The notes beneath the pieces are model-generated. The model saw nothing but the letters and a program-made list of their open reading frames with translations, had not been told where the DNA came from and did no database searches. This document shows positions 34,202-63,799 of a stretch of DNA of 64,000 bases, in pieces. Source of the DNA: an uncultured Spirochaetaceae bacterium (GTDB lineage: Bacteria > Spirochaetota > Spirochaetia > Sphaerochaetales > Sphaerochaetaceae); assembly GCA_944392935.1 (NCBI GenBank), contig CALXYI010000003.1, positions 1 through 64,000 of the forward strand, given 5' to 3'. Positions within the stretch are counted from its first letter, which is position 1; every line of letters starts with the position of its first letter. The position numbers were made by a program, and so were the translations under genes.

Positions 34202-34215
34202 GGATGGATATTATA
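34202..34215 (-). promoter_or_regulatory. -10 element abutting dnaE (leaderless start)
   Basis: Perfect TATAAT at 34215-34210, then 8 nt, then the ATG. The usual start 6-7 nt after a -10 would put the mRNA 5' end within two bases of the ATG. No Shine-Dalgarno is present. Confidence 0.6.
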
Positions 34216-34234
34216 AGGCAAGGGAGGGCGATGG

Positions 34235-34261
34235 AAAAGGCGGCAGGTCATCCCGCCGCCT
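34235..34261 (-). terminator. intrinsic terminator of the glycerate kinase gene
   Basis: On the minus strand a 10-bp GC-rich stem (34261-34252 with 34247-34238, one G-U pair) around an ATGA loop is followed by TTTT. It lies 23 bp past the glycerate kinase stop and just before the dnaE promoter. Confidence 0.8.
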
Positions 34262-34283
34262 CCTGCTGCGCTCCTGATCCCTG

Positions 34284-35417
34284 TCAGAGCCCCATGCTCT
34301 TCATGAATCTCAGGAGGTTGTCCATCGTCAGGCGCATATCGCTCTCTGCGCGTGTCTTCGCCTCCTTGAAAGGCACCGCGACGCGGTTGGTGGAGAATAT
34401 GCCGGTGACGCCATTCTCATATGCACCTTCGATATTGTCGCCTATATCGCCGACGATGGCGGCTACAGGGACTCCCATCTCCTTTGCCCTTCTCGCGACA
34501 CCGATGACCACCTTGCCTCTGAGCGACTGGCCGTCGATCTTGCCCTCGCCGGTGAAGATCAGATCGGCTCCTGCTGCAAGATTCACGAAATCCGTGACAT
34601 CGAGCACCGTGTCGATTCCCATCTGCAGCATGGCGCTGAAGAATGCCTTCATGCCGCCTCCCATGCCTCCGGCCGCTCCGCTTCCGGGAATCTGCTGGAG
34701 ATCGATCCCGATGTCCCTGATGATGACTTCAGAGAGCTTCCTCATCTTCCCGTCGAGTTCCTCGACCATGGCCGGGTCTGCACCTTTCTGTGGCCCGAAG
34801 ACCGCTGCAGCTCCTGTAGGTCCGTAGAACGGATTGTCGATATCGCACATGGCTGTTACGGGAAGTGCCTTGACTTCCTCTGCGAGGGTGCTTGTATCAA
34901 TGCGGGCAATCTTATCCAGCGTTCCGCCTACCGGTACGAATGCCTTCCCGTCTGCATCGTAGAATGATACTCCGCAGGCAGCTGCCGCACCGCATCCGGC
35001 ATCGTTGGTGGCGCTTCCTCCAAGACCGATGACAAGCTTCTTCGCGCCGTTCTTCGCAGCGTGGAGTATGAGCTGTCCGACACCGTAGGTAGTCGTCTTC
35101 GATGGATCCTTTCTGTCTCCGACCTGTGGAAGCCCTGCCGATGCGGCCATCTCGATCACGGCCGTCCCATCGGGGAGCATCCCATAGAAGCTGTCTATAT
35201 CCTCGTTCCATGGTCCCTTTGTCTTCACAGTGACCTTCTCGCCCCCGAGGGCCGCCAGGAAGGCATCCACGCTTCCTTCCCCTCCGTCCGCTACCGGTAT
35301 CGATACGATCTGGCAGTCGGGGTGGTAGGCGAGAATCCTCTCCTTCATGATGGAGATGATCTGTTCACTGGACATCGTCCCTTTGAATGAATCCGGAATA
35401 AGTACTGCTTTCTTCAT
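34284..35417 (-). CDS. glxK: glycerate kinase
   Basis: A 377-residue kinase of the GlxK/GarK family, converting D-glycerate to a phosphoglycerate. DSFKGTMSSEQ at the start, VADGGEGSVDAF, GLGGSATNDAGCGAAAACG and TGEGKIDGQSLRGK are the family blocks. I chose ATG 35417; an in-frame ATG 9 bp upstream is less well placed. Neither has a ribosome site. TGGTATCAT lies 7 nt before ATG 35417, predicting a leaderless mRNA. It ends in a clear terminator, so it is a single-gene unit. Confidence 0.92.
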   Translation of the reverse strand: MKKAVLIPDSFKGTMSSEQIISIMKERILAYHPDCQIVSIPVADGGEGSVDAFLAALGGEKVTVKTKGPWNEDIDSFYGMLPDGTAVIEMAASAGLPQVGDRKDPSKTTTYGVGQLILHAAKNGAKKLVIGLGGSATNDAGCGAAAACGVSFYDADGKAFVPVGGTLDKIARIDTSTLAEEVKALPVTAMCDIDNPFYGPTGAAAVFGPQKGADPAMVEELDGKMRKLSEVIIRDIGIDLQQIPGSGAAGGMGGGMKAFFSAMLQMGIDTVLDVTDFVNLAAGADLIFTGEGKIDGQSLRGKVVIGVARRAKEMGVPVAAIVGDIGDNIEGAYENGVTGIFSTNRVAVPFKEAKTRAESDMRLTMDNLLRFMKSMGL

Positions 35418-35433
35418 AGAAGCCATGATACCA
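35418..35433 (-). promoter_or_regulatory. extended -10 abutting glxK (leaderless start)
   Basis: TGG-TATCAT at 35433-35425 (extended -10, 5/6 match), 7 nt, then the ATG at 35417. No Shine-Dalgarno. Confidence 0.6.
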
Positions 35434-35489
35434 GATATCCGGTGAGTCTACATCCTTTTTCTTCCTGTCCGGATGCAGTTTGATGCGAT

Positions 35490-36392
35490 TCACGCCTCAT
35501 CGGAGGGCAGGGTGAGCGCCCTGACGTTCAGATCCTCTATGATGGAGCGGAGTATTCCGGCCGTGCGCACCTTCTGCAGCTCAGAGAGCCCCTGGAAGAA
35601 TGAATCGATGAATGTGAATACCATTCCCTCGAGATTCCCGAGCTCGGTTTCGTCAAGGGGGAAGCGCAGGGAGGAGAAGATATTGTCTATATCCCTTGAG
35701 TAGCAGATCCCGATGGATGGATAGGTGAAGGATATCCTCGGATTGAGGAGGATGTCCTGATCGAGGGTGCCTGTGAATGCCGCAGAGACAGCCTCATCCG
35801 GCTCAAGCATGAACGATCCTATCCTGGTGAAGTACTGGCAGTTCTTCTCCGTGAAGGCGATCCTGACCCTGGAGATCATTCCCTGCGGAGGCAGCATGAT
35901 GCGCCCGTTCCTGTCCAGGAGGCGGGTCAGCTGCATCCATCTGGAATGAAGCCTCTTCTTCTTTATGAACCTCACCTCCGCCATCGCATCGAGCGCGATG
36001 AGAGTACCCGGGAAGGATGTCGTGAAGCCCTCCGTGCATATCGTCCCCCCGATCGTCGCCCTGCGTGTTATGAGGCGGCTGCCTATCGATTCGATATTCT
36101 CTATGAGCACCTTCGGCAGCACGGCCTTGCCTGTGTTCAGTATCTCGTCAAGCGTCACCATCGCCCCGAATTCGGCGAACCTGTCGTTGCGCTGGAAGCG
36201 ATGGAGCTCCTCGATCTCGCCCAGGTAGATTATCTCGGCATTCATCCGCCTAGAAGGGTAGGAATCAGGGCGTGACATGATGAACGTTCCCCCTGCCCAG
36301 AGCGATGAGGCCGGGTAGTGCAGGATTATCGAGGCATATTCGCTCAGATTCGCGGGAGTATGGATATTAGGGGAGCTGAGACCTTCGTACAT
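35490..36392 (-). CDS. molybdenum hydroxylase-like FAD subunit
   Basis: A 300-residue FAD-binding subunit of the xanthine dehydrogenase/CO dehydrogenase CoxM type. WAGGTFIMSRPD and RRATIGGTICTEG correspond to the two FAD-binding loops (AGGT and TIGGN). The C-terminal CoxM-like domain is present. AAGGAGG lies just before the ATG. It overlaps the iron-sulfur subunit by 26 bp and is last of the three-gene operon. TIGGT in place of TIGGN is a small departure. Electron donor unknown, see the large subunit. Confidence 0.8.
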   Translation of the reverse strand: MYEGLSSPNIHTPANLSEYASIILHYPASSLWAGGTFIMSRPDSYPSRRMNAEIIYLGEIEELHRFQRNDRFAEFGAMVTLDEILNTGKAVLPKVLIENIESIGSRLITRRATIGGTICTEGFTTSFPGTLIALDAMAEVRFIKKKRLHSRWMQLTRLLDRNGRIMLPPQGMISRVRIAFTEKNCQYFTRIGSFMLEPDEAVSAAFTGTLDQDILLNPRISFTYPSIGICYSRDIDNIFSSLRFPLDETELGNLEGMVFTFIDSFFQGLSELQKVRTAGILRSIIEDLNVRALTLPSDEA

Positions 36393-36855
36393 TCCTCTTC
36401 CTCCTTAGCTCGATGCCACGCTGGACTATCATTATCTCGTCCTCCGGATCCATGCACGGGCATCGCACCATCGCCAGCTCGCGGAGTATCTGCTCCTTGT
36501 CCGTTATGGCCTCATCGATCAGCGATTCGAATATGATCGTGCGCGATGCATAGCAGTCAGGGCATGGATAGGCTCCGACGCTCTCATATGCCTTCTCTAT
36601 GTCGCGCATCCCGCGCGTCCGCCTGAAGCTCTCGAACGTGACGACTGTCTTCCCCCTGATCTCGAATGCGGGGACCATGCATGAGAGCATGGCCTTCCCG
36701 TCGACAAGGACCGCGCAGAGTCCGCACATGGCTCCTGAGCAGTGGTTCACGCTGCCTTCCTCCCCCATGTTCTCCCTGAGGATGAGGGAAAGGGGCTTGT
36801 CGGAATTGAGCGAGAGCGTAAGCGTCTTGCCGTCTATGGTGCAGTCGATCTTCAT
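36367..36855 (-). CDS. molybdenum hydroxylase-like [2Fe-2S] subunit
   Basis: A 162-residue two-cluster ferredoxin subunit. The plant-type cluster has CSGAMCGLC and a fourth Cys in KAMLSC. The second cluster has CPDC and CPC, matching the usual C-x2-C and C-x-C pairs. All eight cysteines are there, so both clusters should form. AGACAGGA precedes the ATG; the start overlaps the large-subunit stop by 4 bp. Confidence 0.85.
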   Translation of the reverse strand: MKIDCTIDGKTLTLSLNSDKPLSLILRENMGEEGSVNHCSGAMCGLCAVLVDGKAMLSCMVPAFEIRGKTVVTFESFRRTRGMRDIEKAYESVGAYPCPDCYASRTIIFESLIDEAITDKEQILRELAMVRCPCMDPEDEIMIVQRGIELRRKRNVRRSQLP

Positions 36856-38780
36856 TCCTGTCTCTCCCTGTATAGCTTCTCTATCTCGCCAGCGCTTACC
36901 GGAAGCTCTGCAGCCCTGCTTCCTATTGCCTGCGCAAGCGCGTTCATCAGCGCTCCGAGCGTGAGTCCCCTTGCAAGCTGCTGCACCGAGGATACGGTGT
37001 CATCCGTGCCTGTCTCCCTTATGCTTATGTGCATCCTGAAGGAAAGAGGTATCGAGATGCCGTTCTCCCTGAGCGTCAGGAGTATCGTGCGCCGTATGGA
37101 GTTGATCAGGGATATCCTGTCCATTATCGAGGGGAATGCGAAGGAACCCCAGACTTCCATGGCCATGGGGATCATGCTGCTGCGGTCGATCCTTATCCCG
37201 CATACGACAGAACCGTATCCCGAGTTCTCGAATTCGCATGGATATGATGTGTTCTCCGCATCGAAGCGCAGCGATACCGGGGCCTTCTCGCTGTCCTTGA
37301 GGACGCTGAGCCTCCTGGCGGCGCTCTCGAGCTGCGGCGTGAATGATGCGACAAGGCGCGAAAGCACATCCGGGCCGGTGTCTATCGTGTCCGGCCCATG
37401 GCTGAGGAACACCACGTCATCCGGCCTGCCCGGTATTATCCTCCCAGCGATGCGCTTCTTCCAGGAGCTTATCGTCCCGTGATGCTGCAGGGCTGATGTG
37501 TTGATCGTGACATTGCCTTTCTGCGTATATGTCATCATCGCGGAGAAACCGAGCTCCTTGGACAGCGTCGTTGAGAATCCCGATATCCCGGCACCGCTTG
37601 CGATCCCTATTCCCCTGAGGTACCCAAGTATCCCGAAATCCTCCTTCTGGAAGGTGTCTGCGGACCATTTCCTGTCATAGGAGGAGGCATCATCGGCTTC
37701 CCTGAGGCATTTCTTCACCTCATCGAGCTCGAATCCCGGGATGTAATCGGTGAATTTCCTCTTGTCCTTCTCAATGCTCGCCCTGTACAGGCTCGGAGTC
37801 CTGTCCAGAAGGCTTGCCACGCGCGATATGTGGTATTCAGTCGATGCAAGCGCCTCGCTGTATCCGAGGGAGCCGCAGAATGCAGCGGGGTGGTTAGGGG
37901 ATGAGGCGATCCTGACCGATGCGTGGTAGCTCTTCAGCGGATATGGCGGGATGAGCCCTGCCATGGCCTGCCTCTGGTATTCCTCGGGGGCGAATGCGAA
38001 GGCACCCTGGTCAACTGTCATCTGCACCCTCTCCGCAATCGGCTTTCCATCCCCATCGACGGATATGCTTCTCCTCACGATGATCTCGGGACGTGAGAAT
38101 ACGCCATCGCTCCTTATCTCCGAGGGAAGCCCTGTCCTTATCGTGGCGGTGGCTGCAATCGCTGCAAGCACCGCAGGATCCAGGAGGTATTCATCATGCT
38201 TGGCCGTGTATGGCAGCGCGTGCATTACTATGCTCCTCCTCGGATAGCCCGTAGCGCGCTCCACGGTGGAACGCACCAGCTCCATCCACTCCGTCGGGGC
38301 CTCGATGTGCATGTTGGCGCCTTCCATCCATGCCGTGACCGTATACAGCCTGCTGTTCCTCTGGTAGATCCTCCTGAGCCTGAACTCGGTATCGATCTCC
38401 TTCAGGTTTCCGTCATCCTCCGGCGCCTCTCCCCATCCGTATTCAAGGCTGTCAGGCAGATCAGGCTCCGCCAGATCCTCGATAGGTTCTGTCTTCACTG
38501 ATATCTCCCTCATCAGAAGCGATGCGGATTCGTAGTCGGGAGCGAAGAGGGCAAGCACGATCTGCCCGGGATAGGAGACTGTCTCCTTCGCTATGATCGG
38601 CATCGTGCGGCCGAGGAATGATATCTCATTGCTGCCCGGGATATCGCTCCCCGTTAGGACAAGGTATCTCGCATCGAGCGGCGGCAGGACAAGATCGGAG
38701 ATGCGCACTCCGCCTTCGGAGGCGTGCAGCAGTAGGCCGCATCGCATGTTGTAGCGGGAGAAGTTCTTGCTGTCTGCCAT
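36852..38780 (-). CDS. degenerate molybdenum hydroxylase-like large subunit
   Basis: A 642-residue protein in the place of a molybdopterin-binding subunit, but shorter than the usual 750 or more and poorly conserved. I can align CGSLGYSEALASTEYHISRVASLL with the family's RGFGxPQAxFAxExxxDExA region (shown in part) and ARGLTLGALMNALAQAIG with the segment after the catalytic Glu. The expected GGGFGGK, EMGQG/EFGQG and GEPP motifs are missing. So cofactor binding or catalysis by the classical route is doubtful. It may be a derived family with another role. ATG 38780 has no ribosome site; TGGTATCCT lies 7 nt upstream. It leads the operon with the iron-sulfur and FAD subunits. Confidence 0.65.
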   Translation of the reverse strand: MADSKNFSRYNMRCGLLLHASEGGVRISDLVLPPLDARYLVLTGSDIPGSNEISFLGRTMPIIAKETVSYPGQIVLALFAPDYESASLLMREISVKTEPIEDLAEPDLPDSLEYGWGEAPEDDGNLKEIDTEFRLRRIYQRNSRLYTVTAWMEGANMHIEAPTEWMELVRSTVERATGYPRRSIVMHALPYTAKHDEYLLDPAVLAAIAATATIRTGLPSEIRSDGVFSRPEIIVRRSISVDGDGKPIAERVQMTVDQGAFAFAPEEYQRQAMAGLIPPYPLKSYHASVRIASSPNHPAAFCGSLGYSEALASTEYHISRVASLLDRTPSLYRASIEKDKRKFTDYIPGFELDEVKKCLREADDASSYDRKWSADTFQKEDFGILGYLRGIGIASGAGISGFSTTLSKELGFSAMMTYTQKGNVTINTSALQHHGTISSWKKRIAGRIIPGRPDDVVFLSHGPDTIDTGPDVLSRLVASFTPQLESAARRLSVLKDSEKAPVSLRFDAENTSYPCEFENSGYGSVVCGIRIDRSSMIPMAMEVWGSFAFPSIMDRISLINSIRRTILLTLRENGISIPLSFRMHISIRETGTDDTVSSVQQLARGLTLGALMNALAQAIGSRAAELPVSAGEIEKLYRERQE

Positions 38781-38796
38781 ACCGAGAAGGATACCA
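38781..38796 (-). promoter_or_regulatory. extended -10 abutting the molybdenum-hydroxylase-like operon (leaderless start)
   Basis: TGG-TATCCT at 38796-38788, 7 nt, then ATG at 38780. No Shine-Dalgarno. The -10 hexamer is a 4/6 match. Confidence 0.5.
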
Positions 38797-38874
38797 CCTC
38801 TTACCTGCAGGCGCAACGGCAGCGGATGCTGTGGCGCGCCTGCTTTGGTGCTGATGCCCCATGGCACCCTCCTG

Positions 38875-38889
38875 TGCTATCATTCAGGC
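38875..38889 (+). promoter_or_regulatory. extended -10 abutting ligA (leaderless start)
   Basis: TGC-TATCAT at 38875-38883, 6 nt, then ATG at 38890. No Shine-Dalgarno. Confidence 0.6.
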
Positions 38890-40977
38890 ATGAATGCCAA
38901 GGAAGAGATAGATAAGCTGACAAGCGAGCTGAGGATATACCAGGATAAGTACTACAAGGAGGGAGTGTCGCTCATCGCGGACAGCGAGTACGACCGTCTT
39001 GCCGACCGCCTGATCGAGCTTGAGCGGGAGCATCCGGAGCTCCAGCATCCCGATTCCCCGACAAAGCGCGTAGGTTCCGATCTCACCAATGATTTCCCCG
39101 AGGTGAGGCATACGATACCTGTCCTCTCCCTGGACAAGGCCTACTCGGATGAGGCCGTCCTCGATTTCTTCTCCAGATCGATACAGAAGGAAGGGGGAGC
39201 GCTTTCGTTCGCGGCAGAGGAGAAGATAGACGGCATCTCGATGGTGCTCTATTACGAGGGCGGGGTGCTCCGCCGTGCCGTTACGAGGGGCAATGGAGAG
39301 ATCGGCAATGATGTCACGCCCAACATAATGACGATGAGGAGCGTCCCCCTCTCGCTTCCTGAGCCTGTCGATATAGCGGTGCGTGGGGAGGTCTATCTCG
39401 AGAAGTCGGATTTCCTCCGCCTGAACGCGGAGGAGGCGGACGAATCGAAGAGAGCTGCCAATCCGCGCAATCTCGCCGCGGGTACGGTAAGGCGGCAGAA
39501 GAGCATCGAGGCTGTACGCGTTCCCCTTACGATCTTCTGCTATGAGGGGTTCTGGAGCGACAGGTCCCAGACGCCTCCTGACCACCTCCATATCCTTGCC
39601 CGCCTCAAGGGCCTCGGCTTCAGGATCAATCCGCACCTCGCGTTCTTCGATTCGACAAGGGAGAAGGCCGAGGAGAAGCTGCGCTCTGCCGGACTTGACG
39701 GCAAGGCGTTCGCTTTCTCTGATATCGGCGGGTTCATAAGGGAGAAGAGCGCTGAGCGTCCATCGCTTGCCTATGAGATAGACGGGCTTGTCTTCAAGAT
39801 CAATGAGCTTGATGTGAGGGAGAGGCTCGGATACACCGAGCATCATCCGCGCTGGGCGATTGCCTATAAGTTCGAGGCGCCGCAGGCGGAGGCGAAGCTC
39901 CTGGACATAACGGTGCAGGTAGGGCGTACGGGGCGCATCACTCCCGTCGCGGAGATAACCCCTACGAAGCTCGGAGGCTCCACGATAAGGCGTGCCACGC
40001 TCCATAACCAGGAGTATATAGATGAGCTGGAGCTCGCCATCGGCGATACTGTCTCGATATCGAAGCGCGGGGATGTGATACCCGCTGTCGAGAGCGTGAC
40101 AGAGAAGAACAGCTCCGGCAATACCACTTTCGTGCTGCCTGCGGAATGCCCTTGCTGCCATGCTCCGATCGTGCAGGTAGGAGGGCTCCAGTACTGCCCG
40201 AATCCCGGATGCCCGGATCAGGTGAAGGGCAGGATAGCATATTTCGCATCCAGGGATGAGATGGATATAGAGTCCCTGGGCCCCAGGACTGTGGAGCTCC
40301 TGTATGATGCGGGGATCCTGAGGAGCGTGGAGGATATCTATACCGCCGATTACTCTGCCGCAGCCTCCCTTCCCGGCCTGGGGGAGAAGAGCATCGCGCT
40401 GCTCGAGAAGGGCGTGAGGGAGAGCCTTTCCCGCCCGTTCTCCACAGTCCTGTCTGCCCTCGGCGCTGCCGATATCGGCAGGAAGAGCGCGGAGATGCTG
40501 GTCCGCAGCGGCTTCGATTCCATAGAGAAGATCCAGAACGGCACGGTCTCTGGCTTCGCGGCTATCCCAGGCTTCGGGGAGCTTACCGGTGAGCGCATAG
40601 TCCAGGCATTCGCCTCGCCGTCCCTCAGGAAGACGATAGAAGGGCTCAGGAAGGCAGGCGTGCATCTCGATGCCAGCCAGGATGCGAAGGGAGAGGATCT
40701 CCCGAAGACGCTCTCAGGCACGGTCTGGTGCATAACAGGCTCGTTCGAGGCATTCAATCCGCGCTCGAAGGCTCTCAGGGAGATAGAGAAGCGAGGTGGA
40801 CGGACAGTCTCATCGGTCACCGGCAATACCACTCATCTGCTTGCGGGGAAGGGCGGAGGCTCGAAGAGGGCGGAGGCGGAGAGGCTGGGCGTGGAGATCG
40901 TCAGCGAGGAGGAGTTCATGCGTCTTATCGGCATGGAGGCAGCGGCTCCGGATGACGGGCAGCTCACCCTTTTCTGA
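38890..40977 (+). CDS. ligA: NAD-dependent DNA ligase
   Basis: A 695-residue ligase sealing nicks in replication and repair. The adenylated lysine is Lys112 in EEKIDGISM. The OB fold follows, then the zinc finger (CPCCHAPIV and CPNPGCP), four helix-hairpin-helix repeats and a C-terminal BRCT domain (WCITGSFEAFNPRSKALREI, in part). It ends in DDGQLTLF; QLTLF matches the sliding-clamp binding motif QL[SD]LF, placed at the extreme C-terminus. ATG 38890 is where homology begins; the frame reaching 38767 would add residues overlapping the divergent gene. The start is predicted leaderless. Confidence 0.96.
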   Translation: MNAKEEIDKLTSELRIYQDKYYKEGVSLIADSEYDRLADRLIELEREHPELQHPDSPTKRVGSDLTNDFPEVRHTIPVLSLDKAYSDEAVLDFFSRSIQKEGGALSFAAEEKIDGISMVLYYEGGVLRRAVTRGNGEIGNDVTPNIMTMRSVPLSLPEPVDIAVRGEVYLEKSDFLRLNAEEADESKRAANPRNLAAGTVRRQKSIEAVRVPLTIFCYEGFWSDRSQTPPDHLHILARLKGLGFRINPHLAFFDSTREKAEEKLRSAGLDGKAFAFSDIGGFIREKSAERPSLAYEIDGLVFKINELDVRERLGYTEHHPRWAIAYKFEAPQAEAKLLDITVQVGRTGRITPVAEITPTKLGGSTIRRATLHNQEYIDELELAIGDTVSISKRGDVIPAVESVTEKNSSGNTTFVLPAECPCCHAPIVQVGGLQYCPNPGCPDQVKGRIAYFASRDEMDIESLGPRTVELLYDAGILRSVEDIYTADYSAAASLPGLGEKSIALLEKGVRESLSRPFSTVLSALGAADIGRKSAEMLVRSGFDSIEKIQNGTVSGFAAIPGFGELTGERIVQAFASPSLRKTIEGLRKAGVHLDASQDAKGEDLPKTLSGTVWCITGSFEAFNPRSKALREIEKRGGRTVSSVTGNTTHLLAGKGGGSKRAEAERLGVEIVSEEEFMRLIGMEAAAPDDGQLTLF

Positions 40978-41004
40978 GGGTAGTGCCCCAAGGGGCGCAA
41001 AATA

Positions 41005-41029
41005 TGCTATAAGGAGGCTGGAGGCAAGG
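41005..41029 (+). promoter_or_regulatory. extended -10 and ribosome site of the aminotransferase operon
   Basis: TGC-TATAAG (41005-41013) is an extended -10 like those of the leaderless group, but here about 17 nt follow and contain GAGGCAAGGA, so a short leader with a ribosome site is expected. Confidence 0.45.
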
Positions 41030-41030
41030 A

Positions 41031-44015: not shown

Positions 44016-44022
44016 AAGCGAT

Positions 44023-50006: not shown

Positions 50007-50020
50007 TGCTATCATTGGGC
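50007..50020 (+). promoter_or_regulatory. extended -10 abutting the PNPOx gene (leaderless start)
   Basis: TGC-TATCAT at 50007-50015, 5 nt, then ATG at 50021. No Shine-Dalgarno. Confidence 0.6.
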
Positions 50021-50701
50021 ATGAGTGAATATACATGCCAGAGCTGCGGGCTTGGAATCGATGACGAGTCGATGCTGGGTACGTATCCAGATGGAAGGAA
50101 GAATGCGGATTACTGCAGCCACTGCTTCAGGGACGGAGGATTCACGCATCCGGATATCACCATGGAGGAGCAGATCGAGCTCAATATCTCAGGCGACAGC
50201 CTGGAGGAATTCAACAGGAAGGAGGATGTCTCATTCTCCTCTGCGGGGGCGAGGAATGTGATGGCTATGTACTTCCCGCGTCTCAAGAGGTGGATGGACA
50301 CGGAGAGGAAGATCGGTTGGATGATCGAACGCATCGGCTATGCCGTGCTCTCCACGCTCTCTGAAGAGGGATATCCTCGGCCCTCCGCTGTCGATATCAT
50401 CGCAAGACATGGCATCAGGGAGCTCTGGATGACGACGCATTCATCCTCGGCGAAGGCTGGGAACATAAGGCGGGATCCACGCACCGGGCTGTGCTTCGTG
50501 CATGAGGCCGACAGCGTATCGCTGACGGGAACCGCCGGGATCATCTCTGACAAGGAAAACCTTGAGCGCTTCTGGGAGGACCGCATGCTTCGCTATTTCC
50601 CCCTCGGACTGGATGATCCTGAGTACTGCCTCATCCGCTTCCGTCCGGATCATGCCTCTTTCTGGATCGATGGGGCCAGAGGGGAGCTTACCATCGGATG
50701 A
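50021..50701 (+). CDS. zinc-ribbon plus pyridoxamine-phosphate-oxidase-like protein
   Basis: A 226-residue two-domain protein. N-terminal putative zinc ribbon has CQSC near residue 6 and CSHC near residue 32. The rest has the split-barrel flavin fold of the PNPOx/general-stress-protein family: YAVLSTLSEEGYPRPSAVDII, TTHSSSAKAGNIRRDPRTG (in part) and VHEADSVSLTGTAGII. Relatives bind FMN, F420 or haem; the true activity is unknown. ATG 50021 begins the ribbon motif; the ATG at 50006 overlaps the -10 element. Predicted leaderless. It stands alone between the divergent Rpn-like gene and ktrB. Confidence 0.75.
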   Translation: MSEYTCQSCGLGIDDESMLGTYPDGRKNADYCSHCFRDGGFTHPDITMEEQIELNISGDSLEEFNRKEDVSFSSAGARNVMAMYFPRLKRWMDTERKIGWMIERIGYAVLSTLSEEGYPRPSAVDIIARHGIRELWMTTHSSSAKAGNIRRDPRTGLCFVHEADSVSLTGTAGIISDKENLERFWEDRMLRYFPLGLDDPEYCLIRFRPDHASFWIDGARGELTIG

Positions 50702-50732: not shown

Positions 50733-50747
50733 TGCTATGATGGCAGC
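50733..50747 (+). promoter_or_regulatory. extended -10 abutting ktrB (leaderless start)
   Basis: TGC-TATGAT at 50733-50741, 6 nt, then ATG at 50748. No Shine-Dalgarno. Confidence 0.6.
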
Positions 50748-52043
50748 ATGCAGAGGAGGAGGAAGCTGCAGCCGGGACTGCAGCTTGCATTGGGGTTCTT
50801 GCTCATAATAGCGGTGGGTGCGGTTCTGCTGTATCTGCCTGTGTCGCATCAGGAAGGGGTGGACCTTCCGTTTCTGGATGCGCTCTTCGTCTCTGTCTCC
50901 GCAGTCTGCGTAACCGGTCTTACTCCTGTGGATATCTCAGCGACCCTATCCCTTTTCGGATCTACGGTCCTGATGCTCCTGATACAGCTCGGCGGGCTCG
51001 GATACGCTGTCGTGGCTGTCATCATCATACGCCTGGCAAGCGGCAGGATAGATGTCTCGACAGGCAAGCTCCTGCATGATTCCCTGGGTGCGGACCATAG
51101 GGTAGGCACAAGGAAGCTCCTGCTGCTGGCCCTTTCCGTCACAGGTATCGCCGAGGCGCTTGGAGCCATCATGCTCTTCATCCCGTTCTCTTCCCGCTAT
51201 CCCCTTGGATGGGCTGCGTATCTTGCTGTATTCCACTCCGTCTCGGCATTCAATAATGCGGGCTTCGATCTCTTCTCCGACAGCCTGATGAAATGGAACG
51301 ATGATCCTGCAGTGCTGATTGCCATCGCCTCCCTTATAGTCCTCGGCGGCCTCGGATTCATCCTCTATGGGGATATCCTGGATCATGCAAGGCATGGCAG
51401 GAAGGTCTCGATCCATAGCAGGATAGTGCTGTCCACCACAGCCTTCCTCATCATCTCCGGCACGGTCCTCTTCCGCCTCATACTGCCGGACGCAGACTGG
51501 AAGAATGCATTCTTCCAATCCGTGACGACCAGGACCGCTGGCTATTTCTCCTACGATCAGTCCACGCTGCCGCCTGCTGGCATCGTGCTTACCGTGATCC
51601 TCATGTTCATAGGCGCCTCTCCCGGCTCTACGGGAGGAGGCGTGAAGACCACATCGTTCTATACAGCGGTCAAGGCCGCATTCTCCCTTCTCCTCCTGGG
51701 ACGCGGTCCCTCTGCATTCAGGCGCGGGATAAGCCTTGATTCGGTGATGCATGCATTCTTCGCGATCATCTTCTCGGTGCTGATCATCTTCTCCGCATCA
51801 TTCCTTCTTGCCATCACCGATCCGCAGTTCTCCGTAGGGGAGATCCTCTATGAGACTGTATCCGCATATGCGACAGTGGGGCTGACCATGGGCATAACGC
51901 CGTACATCTCGCCTGCGGGCAGGATCATCCTGATCATACTGATGTATCTGGGCAGGGTAGGATTCATGACTATAATATCGGCATTCGCACGTCGCAGTGC
52001 GTCAGGCACGAAGTACATAGAGGAAAGGGTCATCATAGGTTGA
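50748..52043 (+). CDS. ktrB: potassium uptake channel subunit KtrB
   Basis: A 431-residue inner-membrane K+ (Na+-linked) transporter subunit of the TrkH/KtrB family with four M1-P-M2 repeats. Selectivity-loop glycines are visible in VCVTGLTPVD, FNNAGFDL, TRTAGYF and YATVGLTMG. The GASPGSTGGGVKT stretch is a hallmark. ATG 50748 is where homology begins; the frame extending to 50562 overlaps the previous gene. Its stop precedes ktrA by a single base. Confidence 0.92.
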   Translation: MQRRRKLQPGLQLALGFLLIIAVGAVLLYLPVSHQEGVDLPFLDALFVSVSAVCVTGLTPVDISATLSLFGSTVLMLLIQLGGLGYAVVAVIIIRLASGRIDVSTGKLLHDSLGADHRVGTRKLLLLALSVTGIAEALGAIMLFIPFSSRYPLGWAAYLAVFHSVSAFNNAGFDLFSDSLMKWNDDPAVLIAIASLIVLGGLGFILYGDILDHARHGRKVSIHSRIVLSTTAFLIISGTVLFRLILPDADWKNAFFQSVTTRTAGYFSYDQSTLPPAGIVLTVILMFIGASPGSTGGGVKTTSFYTAVKAAFSLLLLGRGPSAFRRGISLDSVMHAFFAIIFSVLIIFSASFLLAITDPQFSVGEILYETVSAYATVGLTMGITPYISPAGRIILIILMYLGRVGFMTIISAFARRSASGTKYIEERVIIG

Positions 52044-52044
52044 T

Positions 52045-52784: not shown

Positions 52785-52792
52785 CGCTGGAA

Positions 52793-55585: not shown

Positions 55586-55608
55586 ATAGACCTTCTTATA
55601 GTCAGGAT

Positions 55609-55636
55609 ATTATAGATATTGTCGGACTTTTGTGAA
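55609..55636 (-). promoter_or_regulatory. promoter of pyruvate kinase
   Basis: TTCACA (-35, 5/6, 55636-55631), 16-bp spacer, TATAAT (-10, 55614-55609) on the minus strand, then a short leader with AGAAGG before the ATG. Confidence 0.65.
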
Positions 55637-57058: not shown

Positions 57059-57204
57059 GCATCATGATCAATGCCTGCCTACCGCTACGCGCTTCAAATC
57101 GGCGTGTCCGGCACCTACTGCGCGATATCATATATCCCTTGATACTGTCTGTCCATGCCCATAGTAAGCAATCATTCCTAATGGTTCCGCACATCTTCCC
57201 CTGC

Positions 57205-57220
57205 TGCTAATATGACAGGC
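57205..57220 (+). promoter_or_regulatory. extended -10 abutting mutT (leaderless start)
   Basis: TGC-TAATAT at 57205-57213, 7 nt, then ATG at 57221. No Shine-Dalgarno. Confidence 0.55.
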
Positions 57221-57619
57221 ATGAAGAGCATCAGGGTAAGTGCGGCAGTCATCCATTCCGATGGCAGGGTATATGCGACAAGACGCGGTCATGGCGAGTT
57301 CCGCGGGCTATGGGAATTCCCCGGAGGCAAGCAGGAGCCTGGCGAGACCGGCGAGGCAGCAGCCATCCGCGAGATAAGGGAAGAGCTCGGAGCCATGATC
57401 GGCATCGAGAAGCATCTCTGCACAGTTGAGTATCAGTATCCGTCATTCCATCTCACGATGGACTGCTATCTCTCATATGTGAAGGAAGGGCAGCTCACCC
57501 TGTCAGAGCATGATGATGCAGCATGGCTGTCAATCGATGAGCTCGATGCAGTCCAGTGGCTGCCTGCGGATGTCCTTGTCGTGGAGGAGCTGAAGAAGCA
57601 CTTCGCCAGCGTGCTGTGA
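57221..57619 (+). CDS. MutT-like NUDIX pyrophosphohydrolase
   Basis: A 132-residue NUDIX protein. The box runs from Gly36 to about 58: GKQEPGE then AAAIREIREELG, with the metal-binding glutamates. WEFPGGK and the short length resemble MutT, which removes 8-oxo-dGTP from the nucleotide pool. The gene ends exactly against the stop of the PLD-helicase gene on the other strand, with no spacer. It might serve general nucleotide sanitation or belong with that helicase. Predicted leaderless. Confidence 0.85.
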   Translation: MKSIRVSAAVIHSDGRVYATRRGHGEFRGLWEFPGGKQEPGETGEAAAIREIREELGAMIGIEKHLCTVEYQYPSFHLTMDCYLSYVKEGQLTLSEHDDAAWLSIDELDAVQWLPADVLVVEELKKHFASVL

Positions 57620-60493
57620 TCATACCGATGATGTTAGATAGTCATAGATATCGCTGCGGACAGGGATCTTGAGCCTGTAGAGGATCTCGAATGCGGGTTT
57701 CCCGTCTACCTGGACCGGAACAGGTTCACCCTCTGCTTCTATCTCCCCGAGGAAGTAGAACTCCTTGCGTCCATCATCCTTGTTCTTCCTGACGAAAAGA
57801 TAGATGCGGTTATCCTTGTCCTCCGGAGTGCGCTTGTAGATATGATCAGCATCGCTGCTGTCGATCGACCTTGGCTTCTTTGAGAAGGCTATTATCTCAG
57901 AGGGAGACAGGAAACGGTCATCGTAGCTTATCGCATCCGGTTCCTTCTCGTAGTTGATGAATACTGGCAACGTCTTTGTGGGCTTGTCATATTTATAGCC
58001 TCCTATATTGAGGGGTGTCTCACTTCTTTCCCAGCAGAGCAGCCTGCATACATCTTCATAAGTATACTTCTCGGAAAGGACGAATGACGTGCCTGGATAA
58101 GGGTTGCTGTATGCTTCCATGTATCTGGCAAGTCCATCTTCAACAATATCCCGAAGCTCTGAGCAGAATGCTGGATCGTACAGCATCCTGCGGAATCCGT
58201 CAGTCAGCAGGCCTGTCTGCTCATCGATTATGGCACAGCCTGAGTATTTACCTCTTTGGTCTGCCGTCTTTGGGAACAAGCAGGCGAGATTGACGGAAAT
58301 GGAGTGCAGCAATGGACCATCCATTCCATATGCTGCTGTTTTGCCTGCAGCCTGAAGCAGCTCCCCCTCAAGGACTTCTGCGAGGAATTCAAGTTCATAT
58401 CTGCGTTTTCCGGATGAGAAACTCTCGGAGATGTATACAAGCATGTTTTCCTGAGCCTCCGTGAGAGCTGCCTTGAAATCCGGTTCGGCTTTCTTCAGGA
58501 AGCTGTAGTATGAGCCGTACTTATCCACATATAGCTGGATGTCTATCGTATTGTCCTTCCTGAAATCGCTTATGCGGGGTATGCGGCCGAGCTTGTTCTT
58601 CAGGTCCAGGTATTTCTCCTTGAGGAACCTGGCTTGTGAGAAATCCGCATTGTCTATCCTGCGGTAGATCATGTCCCTGGCTATCGGATCGAAATCAATC
58701 GTCGAACAGCCGGGAATCATCCTTGTTCCTTCCAGGGATATTCTTCTCAGATTATCCTTGTCATACGATGTATCGCCAGATAGTGCCACAGGTATGAGAT
58801 AGTTCCTGTCATAGTTCGCGATGAAATCAAGGACGATCACGAAATCCTTTTCCGGATCCTTCCTGAGTCCCCTTCCAAGCTGCTGGACGAACACTATCAC
58901 GGACTGTGTGGGGCGAAGCATGATTATCTGGTTCACTTTCGGTAGATCCACGCCTTCGTTCATCACGTCAACGGAGAGGATATAGTCAAGTGCCTCGCTC
59001 CCTTCCTCTGCCTGAAGCCTCTCCGAGAACCTGATCCTCTCATCGATCGATGTGCTTCCGGATACCGCGGCTGTCCTCAGCCCCCTCTCATTCATGAGCC
59101 GTGAGAGCTCCTCGGCCTCCTCGGTCCTGCTGCAGAATATGAGTCCTTTGACCCTGTCCCCTGCATGCCCGTAGAACCTTGCCTTCTCGATGATCCTGTC
59201 CACCCGTTCCTCTGATACGAGATGGGAGAATGCCTCCTTATCCTCCAGCTGCCGTCCATCCACGGCGATATCGCTTATCCCGAAATAATGGAAAGGGCAC
59301 AGAAGATCGTTCTCCAGCGCCTCCTGGAGACGTATGTCGCATGCGATATTGTAGTCGAAAAGCTCATAGATGTTGAAATGATCAGTCCTATCAGGTGTCG
59401 CTGACATGCCGAGGAGGAAGGCCGGGGTGAAATAATCCAGTATCCTCCTGTATGATTCAGCTCCGGCCCTGTGCACTTCATCAATGATGATGTAATCAAA
59501 GAAATCCGGCGGGAATGCGCGGTAGACATCCTCCTTGGCGAAGGTGGATATGGTTGAGAATATGTACTTCCTGTCTGTTTCCCTCCTTCCGCCTGTAAGG
59601 TACCCGATATCCTTGCATATTCCTGATCCCAGTATCTTCTCGAAGCTTTCTGCGGTCTTTTCCAGTATCTGTCCTCTGTGCACCAGATAAAGCATATGCT
59701 TGGGATTGAATGCCTTGACATCAAAGCAGCTGAGATATGTCTTCCCTGTACCAGTTGCCGCTATTATGAGGGCCTTCCTCTTTCCTTCCCTCCTGAGAAG
59801 CTGCAGGGCTTCAGTGGCTTTCCGCTGCATCAGGTTCGGTTTCGTTATATACGTCTCGATATGCTCCCCCTGATCACGGAGCAGCCTGGCTTTTCTGTGG
59901 TATTCCCTGTAGCGGATCTCGTATTCCCTGATCCAGCCATATGAGAGGGGAATGGCCTTTTCCCATAGTTCCTCGAATGCAGCAATGAAGTCAGCTGTAT
60001 ACTGGCCATTATTCATTGATGTTATATAAACATTCCATTCACGGTTTGTTTTCAGTGCAGTCTGTGTTATATTCGAGCTTCCGATTATGATGGTTGCCTG
60101 CTCTCCGGAGATGAAGCCGTATCCTTTTGTATGGAAGCCTTCGCCCGTTATGACCTTCGTTTCGATGAAGGAGGAAAGCGACAGAAGCCGCTTCAGGGCC
60201 TGAGGCTCGCTGAATGTGAGGTAATCTGTTGTTATTATCCGGCCTTTTACTCCTCTTTCCTCCGCTTCGGCAAGGCTCTGCAGCAGTACCTCGAGTCCGC
60301 TCTGGTTTATGAATGCAACAGAGAACATGAAGCTGTCTGCCTGTCGCAGCTCGCTGTTGAGGCAGTCACAGAGAAGCCGGGTCTCCTTTGTGTTCGCTAT
60401 TATCTGTGGCTGCAGCTTCCGCTGGCTCTGTGCCCTGTGGTCTACGAAAGCTGTGTATGAGGCTTTCGTGATCTCCTCTGCTGTTGCTGTCAT
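57620..60493 (-). CDS. PLD nuclease-DEAD helicase fusion with DUF3427-like C-terminus
   Basis: A 957-residue multidomain protein. Residues 40-180 form a phospholipase D-like nuclease domain: H121-T-K123 and GSSN at 138-141 are an HKD motif (a second copy is not evident, so a dimer may be required). Residues 225-560 are a superfamily 2 helicase: ATGTGKT at 246-252, DEVH at 338-341, SATPDR at 364-369 and QLGRGLRKDPE as motif VI. Homology then continues to a C-terminal DUF3427-like domain (YLFVRKNKDDGRKEFYFLG, in part). Such proteins often sit with restriction or other defence genes. Here the neighbours are MutT, a small lipoprotein and Vsr. A role in acting on foreign or damaged DNA is inferred, not shown. 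TGCTATCCT lies 6 nt before the ATG, so it is predicted leaderless. Confidence 0.85.
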   Translation of the reverse strand: MTATAEEITKASYTAFVDHRAQSQRKLQPQIIANTKETRLLCDCLNSELRQADSFMFSVAFINQSGLEVLLQSLAEAEERGVKGRIITTDYLTFSEPQALKRLLSLSSFIETKVITGEGFHTKGYGFISGEQATIIIGSSNITQTALKTNREWNVYITSMNNGQYTADFIAAFEELWEKAIPLSYGWIREYEIRYREYHRKARLLRDQGEHIETYITKPNLMQRKATEALQLLRREGKRKALIIAATGTGKTYLSCFDVKAFNPKHMLYLVHRGQILEKTAESFEKILGSGICKDIGYLTGGRRETDRKYIFSTISTFAKEDVYRAFPPDFFDYIIIDEVHRAGAESYRRILDYFTPAFLLGMSATPDRTDHFNIYELFDYNIACDIRLQEALENDLLCPFHYFGISDIAVDGRQLEDKEAFSHLVSEERVDRIIEKARFYGHAGDRVKGLIFCSRTEEAEELSRLMNERGLRTAAVSGSTSIDERIRFSERLQAEEGSEALDYILSVDVMNEGVDLPKVNQIIMLRPTQSVIVFVQQLGRGLRKDPEKDFVIVLDFIANYDRNYLIPVALSGDTSYDKDNLRRISLEGTRMIPGCSTIDFDPIARDMIYRRIDNADFSQARFLKEKYLDLKNKLGRIPRISDFRKDNTIDIQLYVDKYGSYYSFLKKAEPDFKAALTEAQENMLVYISESFSSGKRRYELEFLAEVLEGELLQAAGKTAAYGMDGPLLHSISVNLACLFPKTADQRGKYSGCAIIDEQTGLLTDGFRRMLYDPAFCSELRDIVEDGLARYMEAYSNPYPGTSFVLSEKYTYEDVCRLLCWERSETPLNIGGYKYDKPTKTLPVFINYEKEPDAISYDDRFLSPSEIIAFSKKPRSIDSSDADHIYKRTPEDKDNRIYLFVRKNKDDGRKEFYFLGEIEAEGEPVPVQVDGKPAFEILYRLKIPVRSDIYDYLTSSV

Positions 60494-60508
60494 GTGTCCA
60501 GGATAGCA
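60494..60508 (-). promoter_or_regulatory. extended -10 abutting the helicase gene (leaderless start)
   Basis: TGC-TATCCT at 60508-60500, 6 nt, then ATG at 60493. No Shine-Dalgarno. Confidence 0.55.
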
Positions 60509-60621
60509 GCAGAAGCGGAAAATGTGCAGCTTCCTGCTGCTGTCAAGCCGTCACATTATGTTTTCGCTGGTTGCTCCCGGGAGTTGGCATTTCCGTTCAT
60601 TCTCTGCGTATTGGAGGTTCT

Positions 60622-60957
60622 ATGAGGATAATCGCTGTTTGTCTTATCGCGCTCCTTGCCATTGCGGGCTGCGATATGTCTGGGATGCTGGGAATCGACA
60701 GGCTCTATGAGTCGGCTATGGACAGGAGCCTTCCGCTTGTCTCCGGCGATAGCATGCTCTATTTCGGGTTCAGGGTCGAGAGCGCGGAGGCTGCAGGCAG
60801 CAGTCTCCATGTCCATGGTGATAAGGACGAGGTCTTCATCATCTCCAGCGGCATGATCACGAATGCCATGGGGGACAGGATAGCAGTGGAGGCAGGAGAG
60901 GGGAGGATACAGCTCATGCTTGCCGGCTGCGATCCTCTCGTCTTCTCTGCATCGTGA
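60622..60957 (+). CDS. small putative lipoprotein
   Basis: A 111-residue protein with a signal peptide ending in LLAIAGC, a clear lipobox. Mature part is about 95 residues with no motif I recognise. GGAGG (60613-60617) lies 4 nt before the ATG; a frame extending to 60484 overlaps the helicase start. Divergent from the helicase and overlaps the convergent vsr tail by 44 bp. Function unknown. Confidence 0.65.
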   Translation: MRIIAVCLIALLAIAGCDMSGMLGIDRLYESAMDRSLPLVSGDSMLYFGFRVESAEAAGSSLHVHGDKDEVFIISSGMITNAMGDRIAVEAGEGRIQLMLAGCDPLVFSAS

Positions 60958-61363
60958 CTTTCCTCTCGGCTATGATCCTTTCGATCATGGCCGAGACATC
61001 CTCCGGACTCTGCCTTATCTCATGCTCCCAGACACGGATGACCGTGTAACCCATGCTCTCAAGCACATGGTTCACTTCCACGTCCTTCTGCATATTCCTC
61101 TCGATCTTCGGTATCCAGTAGTCCCTGTGCGACTTTATGCTGTCCTTTCTGTTCTCCCAGTCGTAGCCATGCCAGAAATCACCATCGCAGAAGATGGCTA
61201 TCCTGTATTTCCTTATCGATATATCCGGATGCCCGTATACGGCCTTGCTGTTCTTCCGGAAGCGCAGGCCTCTGTGCCATAGGGAACGGGAGAGGATCCT
61301 CTCGATGGATGTATCCCTTCCCCGTATCCTGGACATGCAGTAGCTGCGCTGCTCCTCCGTCAT
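60914..61363 (-). CDS. vsr: Vsr-like DNA mismatch endonuclease
   Basis: A 149-residue very-short-patch-repair-type endonuclease, normally nicking beside T:G mismatches produced by deaminated 5-methylcytosine. MSRIRGRDTSIERIL opens it; catalytic Asp47 is in GHPDISI and His65 in FCDGDFWHG; WIPKIERNMQKD and VIRVWEHEI follow. The zinc-binding cysteines of E. coli Vsr are absent, with DWENR in place of the CPCH region. No cytosine methyltransferase is in the window, so its usual partner is missing. It starts one base into the esterase stop (TGATG), so it may be coupled to that gene. Confidence 0.8.
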   Translation of the reverse strand: MTEEQRSYCMSRIRGRDTSIERILSRSLWHRGLRFRKNSKAVYGHPDISIRKYRIAIFCDGDFWHGYDWENRKDSIKSHRDYWIPKIERNMQKDVEVNHVLESMGYTVIRVWEHEIRQSPEDVSAMIERIIAERKVTMQRRREDRSRQA

Positions 61364-62376
61364 CAGAGCCTCTTCTCTTCTCCGAGCTCCCGTTCGGTGA
61401 CGAGCTGGACATTCTCAGGTGACCTGCCTGCGATGAACTGCCTGGCGGCGCATTCCCCTTCAAGCCTTCCCGGGGCACTGCGGTATGCCATGAAGCCATG
61501 GTATGCCCCCTTCGCTTCAAGGGCCTTCGCCTTGGTGCCTGCGGCATTGAGGGCATCTGCGTAAAGCTTGCCATCATCGGAAAGCGGATCGAGCTCTGCT
61601 GTGATGATCAGTGCAGGCGGGAGGCGCGAAAGGTCGGGGCTCAGGGCTGGTGAGAACATCGGCGAGAGTATGTCCTTGGGTTCGCGCTCATAGTTCTTCA
61701 CATAGAATGAGAGCATCCTCTCGTTGAGCATCGGGCTGTCCTTGTGGTCAAGCATCGACTGCGTCCTGAGACGGCAGTCAGTGATCGGGTAGAACAGCAG
61801 CTGGCCAGCCAGCTGCGGGCCTTTCCTGTCGCGGGCGAGGAGGGCTGTCACTGCTGCGAGGTTCCCTCCTGCGCTGTCCCCCGCGATGAATATCCTGTCT
61901 GGATCGACCTTCCAGTATTTCGCTCCTTCTGCTGCCCACAGCAGTGCATCGTAGCAGTCTTCCGCAGCTGTCGGGAACCTGTATCTGGGAGCAAGGCGGT
62001 AGTCTATCATCAGCACCGCGGATCCGGTGACCTCGGCGAAATGCTGCATGAACGCAGAGTAGAACCCCATGTTCCCGAATACCCATCCGCCGCCATGGCA
62101 GAAGATCGTGAGGGGTACAAGCCCGGTGAGCGCGGAGAGCTTGGGATTGGAGAAGTAGTATCCTGTGACAGCTCCGTTCGTCACCGGTATGACGAATGTC
62201 GAGACGTAGATGTCCTTAGAGGAGCGTACGAGCTGCCTTGCATCACGCCGCGTGATCGTCATTGTATTTATATTGTTTATCAGGTCGTCCGAAAGGGATT
62301 CCGGGTCTCTTGCCTGGAAGCGGCTTGAGAGCTCGATAATCCTCCTCATCCGGCCTGTCAGCTTATATTCCGGCAT
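61363..62376 (-). CDS. alpha/beta-hydrolase, hormone-sensitive lipase/esterase family
   Basis: A 337-residue esterase of the acetyl-esterase type. HGGG at 94-97 forms the oxyanion hole, Ser168 is the nucleophile in GDSAGG, and ITAELDPLSDDG and YHGFMAY supply the acid and histidine. Likely a cytoplasmic acyl or acetyl esterase of small esters; no signal peptide. No ribosome site precedes ATG 62376; TACGAT lies 6 nt upstream, a weak candidate -10. It is transcribed into vsr. Confidence 0.85.
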   Translation of the reverse strand: MPEYKLTGRMRRIIELSSRFQARDPESLSDDLINNINTMTITRRDARQLVRSSKDIYVSTFVIPVTNGAVTGYYFSNPKLSALTGLVPLTIFCHGGGWVFGNMGFYSAFMQHFAEVTGSAVLMIDYRLAPRYRFPTAAEDCYDALLWAAEGAKYWKVDPDRIFIAGDSAGGNLAAVTALLARDRKGPQLAGQLLFYPITDCRLRTQSMLDHKDSPMLNERMLSFYVKNYEREPKDILSPMFSPALSPDLSRLPPALIITAELDPLSDDGKLYADALNAAGTKAKALEAKGAYHGFMAYRSAPGRLEGECAARQFIAGRSPENVQLVTERELGEEKRL

Positions 62377-62425
62377 AATGACATCGTATAGTTAATAAGC
62401 TGTGCAGGCAAGTGCAAAAGCCTTT

Positions 62426-63784
62426 TCAGGGCTCTGGTGGCCCTTTGATGAGTATCTTCCCCAGGTTCAGCAGGAATACCGCGGCTGTCACGGAGGCGGA
62501 CAGGGCGTCTGAGATCGACTCCGCAAGGAATACGCCTTTTACCCCCAGCGGGGTGGATGAGAGGATATAGACGAGGGGGATGAGCAGGATGATCTTCCGG
62601 AATATGGCCAGGAAGAGGGAGATCCTGGCCTGCTCGAGGCCGAGGAACGTGTTCTGGGAGCAGCTCTGGAGACCGAATATCGCGAAGCCCGTTATGAAGA
62701 ACTTCATGTATGGAGAGGCGTATGCGATGAGGGCCTTGTCGGATGTGAACATCCCTATGATGGCTGCGGGGAGGAGGTTGCATGCGGATGAGATGATGAA
62801 GCAGTACGCTGCCTCCACTGCCAGTGCGAATCCGTATATCTCCTTCACCCTCCCGTTGAGGCGGGCGCCGAAGTTGTAGCTCACAAGCGGGGTGACTGCC
62901 TGGTTCATCCCCATGAGAGGCATCATCGCGAATGACATGACGGAGGAGAATATGGTCATCGTGCCCACTGCCATGTCGCCGGCGAGGAACTGGAGACGGG
63001 AATTGAATACCACGTTTATGGCGGCTTCAGTCGCGCTCATTATGAACGGGGATACGCCGAGGGCTGTTATCTGCATCAGCAGCCTCCTGCTGATGACCGG
63101 CTTCTGCATGCGTAGCCTCATGGTGCTGCGCCGGCTGGAGAGGAAGAGAACGACATACAGCGCGGAGGCTCCCTGGCTCAGCACGGTGGCTATCGCCGCG
63201 CCGGAGGCACCCATTCCGAATACGAATATGAAGACAGGGTCAAGGATGATGTTGATGATGGCTCCTATCACGACAGTGAGCATGCTCATCGTTGTCCTTC
63301 CCTGTGCTGATATGAATGGATTGAGCCCCAGCGTCAGCAGTACGAACGGGGTCCCTATGAGATAGATGGAAAGGTATTCATCCGCGTAGGCGGCTGTTGT
63401 CTCCGAGGCGCCGAAAAGGTATATGAGGTCTGCCTTCAGCGCATAGAAGGCAGCCATCAGGATGAATGACAGCACCACCAGCGATGCAGCAGCTGTGCCG
63501 AGGATCTCCTCTGCCTTCCTCTCCTGCTTCTGCCCGAGCCTGATCGCGGCAAGGGGACCGCCTCCGTTCCCTATGAGATTGGAGAATGCCGTGATGAGCA
63601 GGATCACGGGATAGGTGATGCCCACGCCCGTGAGGATATCCGCACCGGCAGCTTCGATGTGGCCGAGGTATATGCGGTCCACTATGTTGTAAAGCCCGTT
63701 GACAAGCTGCGCGACGATAAGGGGCAATGCCATAGACAACACAAGCCCCGGCACACGCTTCGTACCCAGTTCGCTCTGCTGCAT
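62426..63784 (-). CDS. MATE-family efflux transporter
   Basis: Third MATE pump, 452 residues, 12 spans; LSMALPLIVAQLVNGLYNIVDRIYLGH (in part NGLYNIVDRIYLGH) and the mid-repeat FISAQGRTTMSMLTV are diagnostic. Substrate unknown. TGGTATGGT lies 6 nt before ATG 63784, a leaderless arrangement. The esterase gene is 50 bp downstream on the same strand. Confidence 0.85.
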   Translation of the reverse strand: MQQSELGTKRVPGLVLSMALPLIVAQLVNGLYNIVDRIYLGHIEAAGADILTGVGITYPVILLITAFSNLIGNGGGPLAAIRLGQKQERKAEEILGTAAASLVVLSFILMAAFYALKADLIYLFGASETTAAYADEYLSIYLIGTPFVLLTLGLNPFISAQGRTTMSMLTVVIGAIINIILDPVFIFVFGMGASGAAIATVLSQGASALYVVLFLSSRRSTMRLRMQKPVISRRLLMQITALGVSPFIMSATEAAINVVFNSRLQFLAGDMAVGTMTIFSSVMSFAMMPLMGMNQAVTPLVSYNFGARLNGRVKEIYGFALAVEAAYCFIISSACNLLPAAIIGMFTSDKALIAYASPYMKFFITGFAIFGLQSCSQNTFLGLEQARISLFLAIFRKIILLIPLVYILSSTPLGVKGVFLAESISDALSASVTAAVFLLNLGKILIKGPPEP

Positions 63785-63799
63785 GGCATGACCATACCA
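63785..63799 (-). promoter_or_regulatory. extended -10 abutting a MATE gene (leaderless start)
   Basis: TGG-TATGGT at 63799-63791, 6 nt, then ATG at 63784. No Shine-Dalgarno. The -10 is a 4/6 match. Confidence 0.45.

Follow-up and report, generated by a model that had tools for sequence, protein, structure and literature searches.

The first 64,000 nucleotides (nt) of contig CALXYI010000003.1, from assembly GCA_944392935.1 of an uncultured Spirochaetaceae bacterium (hereafter the window), contain nine genes in which a -10 promoter element ends only 5-8 nt before the ATG. On sequence grounds, we consider it highly probable that these genes, together with a class across the genome that carries TANNNT at -12, are leaderless, and that such genes make up about a quarter of all transcript-leading genes in this genome. 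This reading, which was put forward in the original prediction, is supported by the exact placement of the motif at -12, a -35 element at the standard distance, depletion of Shine-Dalgarno (SD) sequences, a bias towards leading genes and the reappearance of the pattern in relatives. The genome is a metagenome-assembled genome (MAG) of 1.80 Mb in 66 contigs, about 94% complete, and its closest dnaE matches in the species collection (84-86% identity) belong to uncultured Spirochaetaceae and Spirochaetales MAGs and to Candidatus Ornithospirochaeta (Spirochaetia). The elements and their genes are the following:

30791..34201, minus strand: dnaE (DNA polymerase III alpha), predicted leaderless; NCBIfam NF004226 over cut-off
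34210..34215, minus strand: dnaE -10 TATAAT, 8 nt before the ATG at 34201
35425..35430, minus strand: glycerate kinase gene (glxK) -10 TATCAT with TGG in front, 7 nt before the ATG at 35417; TIGR00045
38788..38793, minus strand: Mo-hydroxylase-like gene -10 TATCCT with TGG in front, 7 nt before the ATG at 38780; weak xanthine dehydrogenase similarity, below cut-off
38878..38883, plus strand: ligA -10 TATCAT with TGC in front, 6 nt before the ATG at 38890; LigA over cut-off
50010..50015, plus strand: PNPOx-domain gene -10 TATCAT with TGC in front, 5 nt before the ATG at 50021; PNPOx_N over cut-off
50736..50741, plus strand: TrkH/KtrB-type potassium transporter gene (ktrB) -10 TATGAT with TGC in front, 6 nt before the ATG at 50748; TrkH family below cut-off
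57208..57213, plus strand: mutT-like NUDIX gene -10 TAATAT with TGC in front, 7 nt before the ATG at 57221; NUDIX over cut-off, MutT model below
60500..60505, minus strand: helicase gene -10 TATCCT with TGC in front, 6 nt before the ATG at 60493; type I restriction R subunit and RadD similarity below cut-offs
63791..63796, minus strand: MATE transporter gene -10 TATGGT with TGG in front, 6 nt before the ATG at 63784; MATE TIGR00797 over cut-off

The letters of all nine elements and their distances to the ATG are as originally described, and eight of the nine genes do have TGS directly before TANNNT. The description of all nine as lacking an SD is arguable for the Mo-hydroxylase-like gene, where GAGGTG lies at -20 to -15, too distant for a usual SD, leaving this gene ambiguous. 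The first T of the hexamer falls at -14 in dnaE, at -13 in glxK, the Mo-hydroxylase-like gene and mutT, at -12 in ligA, ktrB, the helicase and MATE genes, and at -11 in the PNPOx gene, while dnaE has a second TANNNT (TAATAT) at -12. A T at -35, missed at first, is present in nine of nine. It might be argued that these genes were picked by eye from chance matches, given that TANNNT ends 5-8 nt before 105 of the 3105 ATGs in the window, and the emphasis first placed on TG does resemble selection. However, the extended motif TGSTANNNT-N5-8-ATG occurs ten times on the two strands of the window, eight of them at the starts of the nine genes, and a first-order Markov model yields a mean of 3.1 and a maximum of 6 (60 simulations).

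Gene starts were then called by coding signal alone, blind to the motif, in the window plus 40 further stretches of its own genome (678 kb). Two callings with slightly different training gave 543 starts with 248 leading genes and 548 starts with 249 leading genes, the latter being used for the comparison with Escherichia coli and relatives and for flexible starts, where any plausible in-frame ATG or GTG is accepted; a gene counts as leading if its neighbour is divergent or if it lies >80 nt from a co-directional one. TANNNT starts exactly at -12 in 37 of the 248 leading genes, compared with a mean of 4.0 in 1000 dinucleotide shuffles (sd 2.0, maximum 12). The count is 10 at -13 and 4 at -11, it stays at or below 11 at every position from -50 other than -12, and of all XY...Z patterns counted by position in leading genes, none is as frequent as TA...T at -12 (37 against 17 for the runner-up). 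Internal genes have it in only 5 of 221 cases, and the 32455 ATGs on both strands show no comparable excess (0.87% vs 0.78%). When E. coli K-12 was put through the same procedure, TANNNT was found at -12 in 1 of 92 leading genes (background 2.5), and flexible starts there also gave no excess (-2% of leading genes). Enrichment of the motif beyond the window is present in the 678 kb, and we give next to no credence to a selection from chance matches.

These 37 genes (hereafter the -12 genes) share more than the hexamer. T occupies -35 in 30 of them (P = 4e-12), within a weak TTGCCA at -35 to -30; TTG stands at -35 in 8, compared with 3 of the 211 other leading genes; and C is found at -1 in 25. 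The spacing between the -35 and -10 elements is about 17 bp, that of sigma-70 promoters. In standard sigma-70 promoter numbering, a hexamer at -12 to -7 and a -35 element at -35 correspond to a +1 on the A of the ATG. We therefore suggest that the region upstream of these genes is a whole sigma-70-type promoter with its +1 on that A. TG at -15/-14 is enriched (11 of 37, background 6.9%) but not defining, which rules out TGN or an extended -10 as the signature of the class: the spike at -12 and its anticorrelation with SD sequences agree with the upstream pattern foreseen in the original prediction, whereas TGS, taken there as the hallmark, is a minority feature. A compensation of weak -35 elements by TG is unconvincing from the ranges of matches to TTGCCA (1-4 of six positions in TG-bearing promoters, 1-6 in the rest), compared without a statistical test.

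An alternative is that TANNNT at -12 is an A/T-rich translational element, rather than a promoter, that draws ribosomes to SD-less leaders, and the anticorrelation between TANNNT at -12/-13 and SD sequences (P = 4e-5 for the leading genes and 9e-10 for all genes together) agrees with it. Against this stand the fixed distance to the -35 element, the excess of TG and the concentration of TANNNT in leading genes; moreover, in 8 of 10 relatives from the neighbouring clade, in which dnaE is SD-led, TATAAT begins 25-29 nt before the start, as expected of a promoter. We regard a translational element as very improbable. If the genes are leaderless, a sigma-70-type promoter with a T-rich, TTG-like -35, a 17-nt spacer, TANNNT at -12 to -7 and sometimes TG before it would direct RNA polymerase to start at the ATG's A or no more than about 3 nt away; the geometry is observed, and the RNA start is what it predicts. 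The leaderless mRNA would have no room for an SD, and initiation by the ribosome would therefore have to take place directly at the 5'-terminal AUG, using initiator tRNA and initiation factor 2 (IF2), as described for known leaderless translation (PMC10783764).

An SD in the interval -15 to -5 is found in 1 of the 37 -12 genes and in 48% of the other 211 leading genes. Among 86 leading genes whose SD match reaches 5 (a set that omits four further genes with TANNNT at -12), a promoter over cut-off was predicted in 54, with its +1 at -9 to -37 in 38 and at -3 to 0 in 3, in line with the earlier statement that genes with good ribosome sites have their promoter further off. For 107 SD-less leading genes, +1 was predicted at 0 to -3 in 37 (24 of them at 0), using a matrix trained on the -12 genes. 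With flexible starts, 56 genes without an SD have TANNNT at -12 and 31 at -13, relative to a control of 10.5 per position; the excess of 66 genes is equivalent to about 27% of the leading genes, or to 12% if all called genes are taken. Split by start codon, the excess at -12/-13 comes to 52 among 815 ATG candidates and 8 among 365 GTG candidates, and is absent from the 118 with TTG, although false starts are probably numerous among the GTG and TTG candidates.

The mRNAs could instead have short leaders, the real start being a later in-frame codon with an SD and the ATG near the -10 being misassigned. Three of the window genes lend themselves to this: glxK, PNPOx and mutT each have two close in-frame ATGs, one of which overlaps the -10 or its TG. 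Yet 3 of the 37 -12 genes have an in-frame downstream start with an SD, a smaller fraction than among SD-led leading genes (19 of 105), and the alignments of dnaE and ligA to their relatives reach query residues 1-7 in nearly all cases, and therefore leave little room for a later start. Misassignment thus seems to us highly unlikely.

Several observations weigh against the leaderless assignment. A 4- to 5-nt SD-like match anywhere in -20 to -4 occurs in 10 of the 37 -12 genes (27%), near the 21-28% of shifted windows, and the internal genes show a small excess of TANNNT at -12 (5 vs a background of 1.7). dnaE enters the set of 37 through TAATAT at -12, though its likelier -10 is the TATAAT at -14. 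Coding log-odds rise above zero at the ATG, just as they do for SD genes; this is partly circular because the starts were chosen by coding signal. Among relatives, glxK is SD-led in 22 of 27 (of 29 fetched), making the window copy an exception, and the MATE gene is leaderless in 4, SD-led in 5 and in neither state in 8 of 17 (of 29 fetched). An all-gene orthology test of the state found relatives in the fetched DNA for only 3 of the 33 leaderless genes and for 27 of the 96 SD genes, and in Sphaerochaeta halotolerans only 5% of leading genes are predicted to be leaderless with flexible starts.

The richest comparison is provided by dnaE, for which 79 loci from relatives were reduced to 77 by dropping one without a start and one duplicate. 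TANNNT lies at -11 to -16 without an SD in 45 of these, 24 are SD-led and 8 are neither. The 45 leaderless copies start with ATG (44) or GTG (1) and none with TTG, compared with 11 ATG and 13 TTG in the SD-led copies; TTG was kept out of the leaderless state by definition in the first count and in the tree scoring, and a recount of dnaE without that rule still gave none. This start-codon use fits translation from a 5'-terminal AUG. By clade, dnaE is leaderless or has a short leader in 15 of 15 copies of the window's own clade and in 27 of 37 outgroup copies, and is SD-led in 10 of 10 copies of the next clade; the eight TATAAT-bearing copies mentioned above (the dnaE starts of loci L012-L018 and L021) have GGAG at -10/-11 and start with TTG. 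In a quick tree, where 73 of 78 rows were scored and the five in neither state were left out of the change count, the state changes at least six times, one row (L032) being doubtful because the near-identical L031 and L033 lack the motif; these counts do not separate gain from loss of the leaderless state. The window's clade (16 rows, SH-aLRT, a likelihood-ratio branch support, 100) is leaderless throughout and is placed among SD-led clades.

Other genes behave in a similar fashion. For ligA, with leaderless defined by the -12/-13 spacing of TANNNT, all 29 fetched family loci (39 relatives have a match) were inspected, giving 18 leaderless, 10 SD-led and 1 in neither state, and 4 of 5 loci from ten named genomes are leaderless (the remaining named genomes, with matches at 31-33%, were not used). 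In 6 of the 18 leaderless loci the start lies elsewhere, at an offset of -18 to +6 nt, and the -10 is shifted along with it. The ktrB starts inspected in 24 of 29 fetched relatives comprise 8 leaderless, 8 short-leader, 2 SD and 6 neither. The reverse case is a small gene that is SD-led in the window:

17082..17282, plus strand: 66-aa coiled-coil gene with an SD (AAGGAGG) in the window; 10 of 14 relatives have the leaderless type

We take this gene to be SlyX-like. Judged from their upstream regions, then, dnaE, ligA and ktrB are predicted to be leaderless in many relatives, and dnaE, ligA and the coiled-coil gene occur in both states. Individual genes would thus be leaderless or SD-led across relatives, with the leaderless state of dnaE accompanying ATG and not TTG.

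The leaderless class appears to extend to other Spirochaetia, where its frequency varies and is in most cases lower. Flexible starts give predicted leaderless shares of leading genes of 31% in Candidatus O. stercoravium, 20% in SZUA-475, 18% in Spirochaetaceae bin81 (the genome of L016), 17% in Treponema putidum, 12% in T. vincentii and 11% in Ca. Marispirochaeta, which are rough because each is from a sample of 140-236 kb. With strict starts, the -12 spike stands out in Ca. O. stercoravium (P = 2e-6) and in SZUA-475 (P = 4e-5), and the five remaining relatives show it only weakly (P = 0.02-0.17). The pooled dnaE neighbourhoods of relatives have it as well, for example in 20 of 78 leading genes from the clade of the window, in 15 of 51 and in 7 of 47 from other clades, and in 18 of 225 from outgroups; as orthologues, these genes do not give independent counts.

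Leaderless genes are already known in Spirochaetes, and this genome adds another case; the earlier view that no well-described spirochaete set exists does not stand. Zheng et al. (2011, PMC3160421) read TANNNT some 12 bp ahead of the start as the mark of a leaderless ("TA-led") gene and predicted such genes in 6 of 18 Spirochaetes genomes (mean 3.9%, 1.8-6.9), and about 440 leaderless mRNAs, with 5' untranslated regions of <10 nt, were mapped in Leptospira interrogans by differential RNA sequencing (dRNA-seq; PMC5243855). The features expected of TA-led genes, namely TANNNT about 12 bp upstream above shuffled expectation, no SD and a position as first gene of a transcription unit, are all found here. 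The share in this genome is higher than in those Spirochaetes (12% of all called starts, by a different method and on a sample), and we additionally find that the -35 element keeps a fixed distance and that dnaE and ligA each exist in two states within the spirochaetes; SD-like and TA-like signals are reported to substitute for each other among actinobacterial orthologues, and low-GC genomes such as Lactococcus to show a TG peak before the Pribnow box (PMC3160421). Leptospira belongs to the same phylum but to another lineage, and whereas no common promoter motif besides sigma-54 is reported for it, a clear sigma-70-type motif is present here; its leaderless mRNAs were mapped, while ours are predicted from DNA. 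Mycobacterium tuberculosis and Deinococcus deserti (505 and 1174 leaderless mRNAs, as quoted in PMC5243855) likewise have a large leaderless class beside leadered genes, in other phyla and with RNA evidence. Leaderless transcription was predicted in 21.6% of bacterial species by the GeneMarkS-2 study (as quoted in PMC9581028), and an analysis of non-SD genes in six Spirochaetes does not, in its available sections, single out a leaderless set (PMC5397173). We found no literature on leaderless genes in Sphaerochaeta in a search that left out most subscription journals, so that absence for the family is unproven. The basic phenomenon is known, and leaderless starts are little described in this branch of bacteria.

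Replication and repair genes may be over-represented among the leaderless genes, although this is suggestive only. They account for 6 of the 37 motif-blind leaderless genes (DnaE, DnaA, a RadD-like helicase, UvrC, a spore-photoproduct-lyase-like protein and an AlkZ-related protein) and for 0 of 36 SD-led leading genes, in a comparison for which the category was drawn up after the list had been seen, 36 of 96 SD-led leading genes were scanned and LexA was left uncounted. The E-values were looser for most leaderless genes (1e-3 for NCBIfam, 1e-5 for Pfam) than for the controls (1e-8), and no significance test was applied. Translation genes are reported to be less often leaderless (PMC3160421). 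In the own-genome stretches L081-L120, DnaA, UvrC, Pol IV and the AlkZ-related gene are in leaderless-type sets, as is SecA, and the SD-led controls include EF-G, RpoB, S2, L25 and GroES.

A speculative and, on balance, doubtful proposal is that core genes of Spirochaetia switch between the leaderless and the SD-led state in the course of evolution. For dnaE, this would mean a leaderless gene in most sampled outgroups, an SD-led one with TTG in the clades adjoining that of the window, and a return to the leaderless form with ATG in the latter. The same proposal has leaderlessness maintained by preference in genes for DNA replication and repair, possibly as a way of tying their translation to the condition of the 70S/IF2 machinery. 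With both kinds of start side by side in one genome, and with individual genes that switch naturally between them, this spirochaete lineage would allow the cost and the usefulness of leaderless translation to be tested, and start callers that rely on SD sequences may misplace leaderless starts in annotation.

Predicted leaderless genes are divergent from their neighbour more often than other leading genes (33 of 37 vs 123 of 211, P = 2e-4), and their intergenic gaps are not significantly shorter than those of the other leading genes (P = 0.14). Coupling of two leaderless genes in divergent pairs was rejected, with 18 of 74 pairs observed and 15.2 expected. There are divergent pairs in which the 29-49 nt between the two ATGs are filled by two interleaved leaderless-type promoters (L103:10046-10096, L094:3332-3362, L100:5968-6014 and L113:4557-4603), as in uvrC and the spore-photoproduct-lyase-like gene, which lie 49 nt apart.

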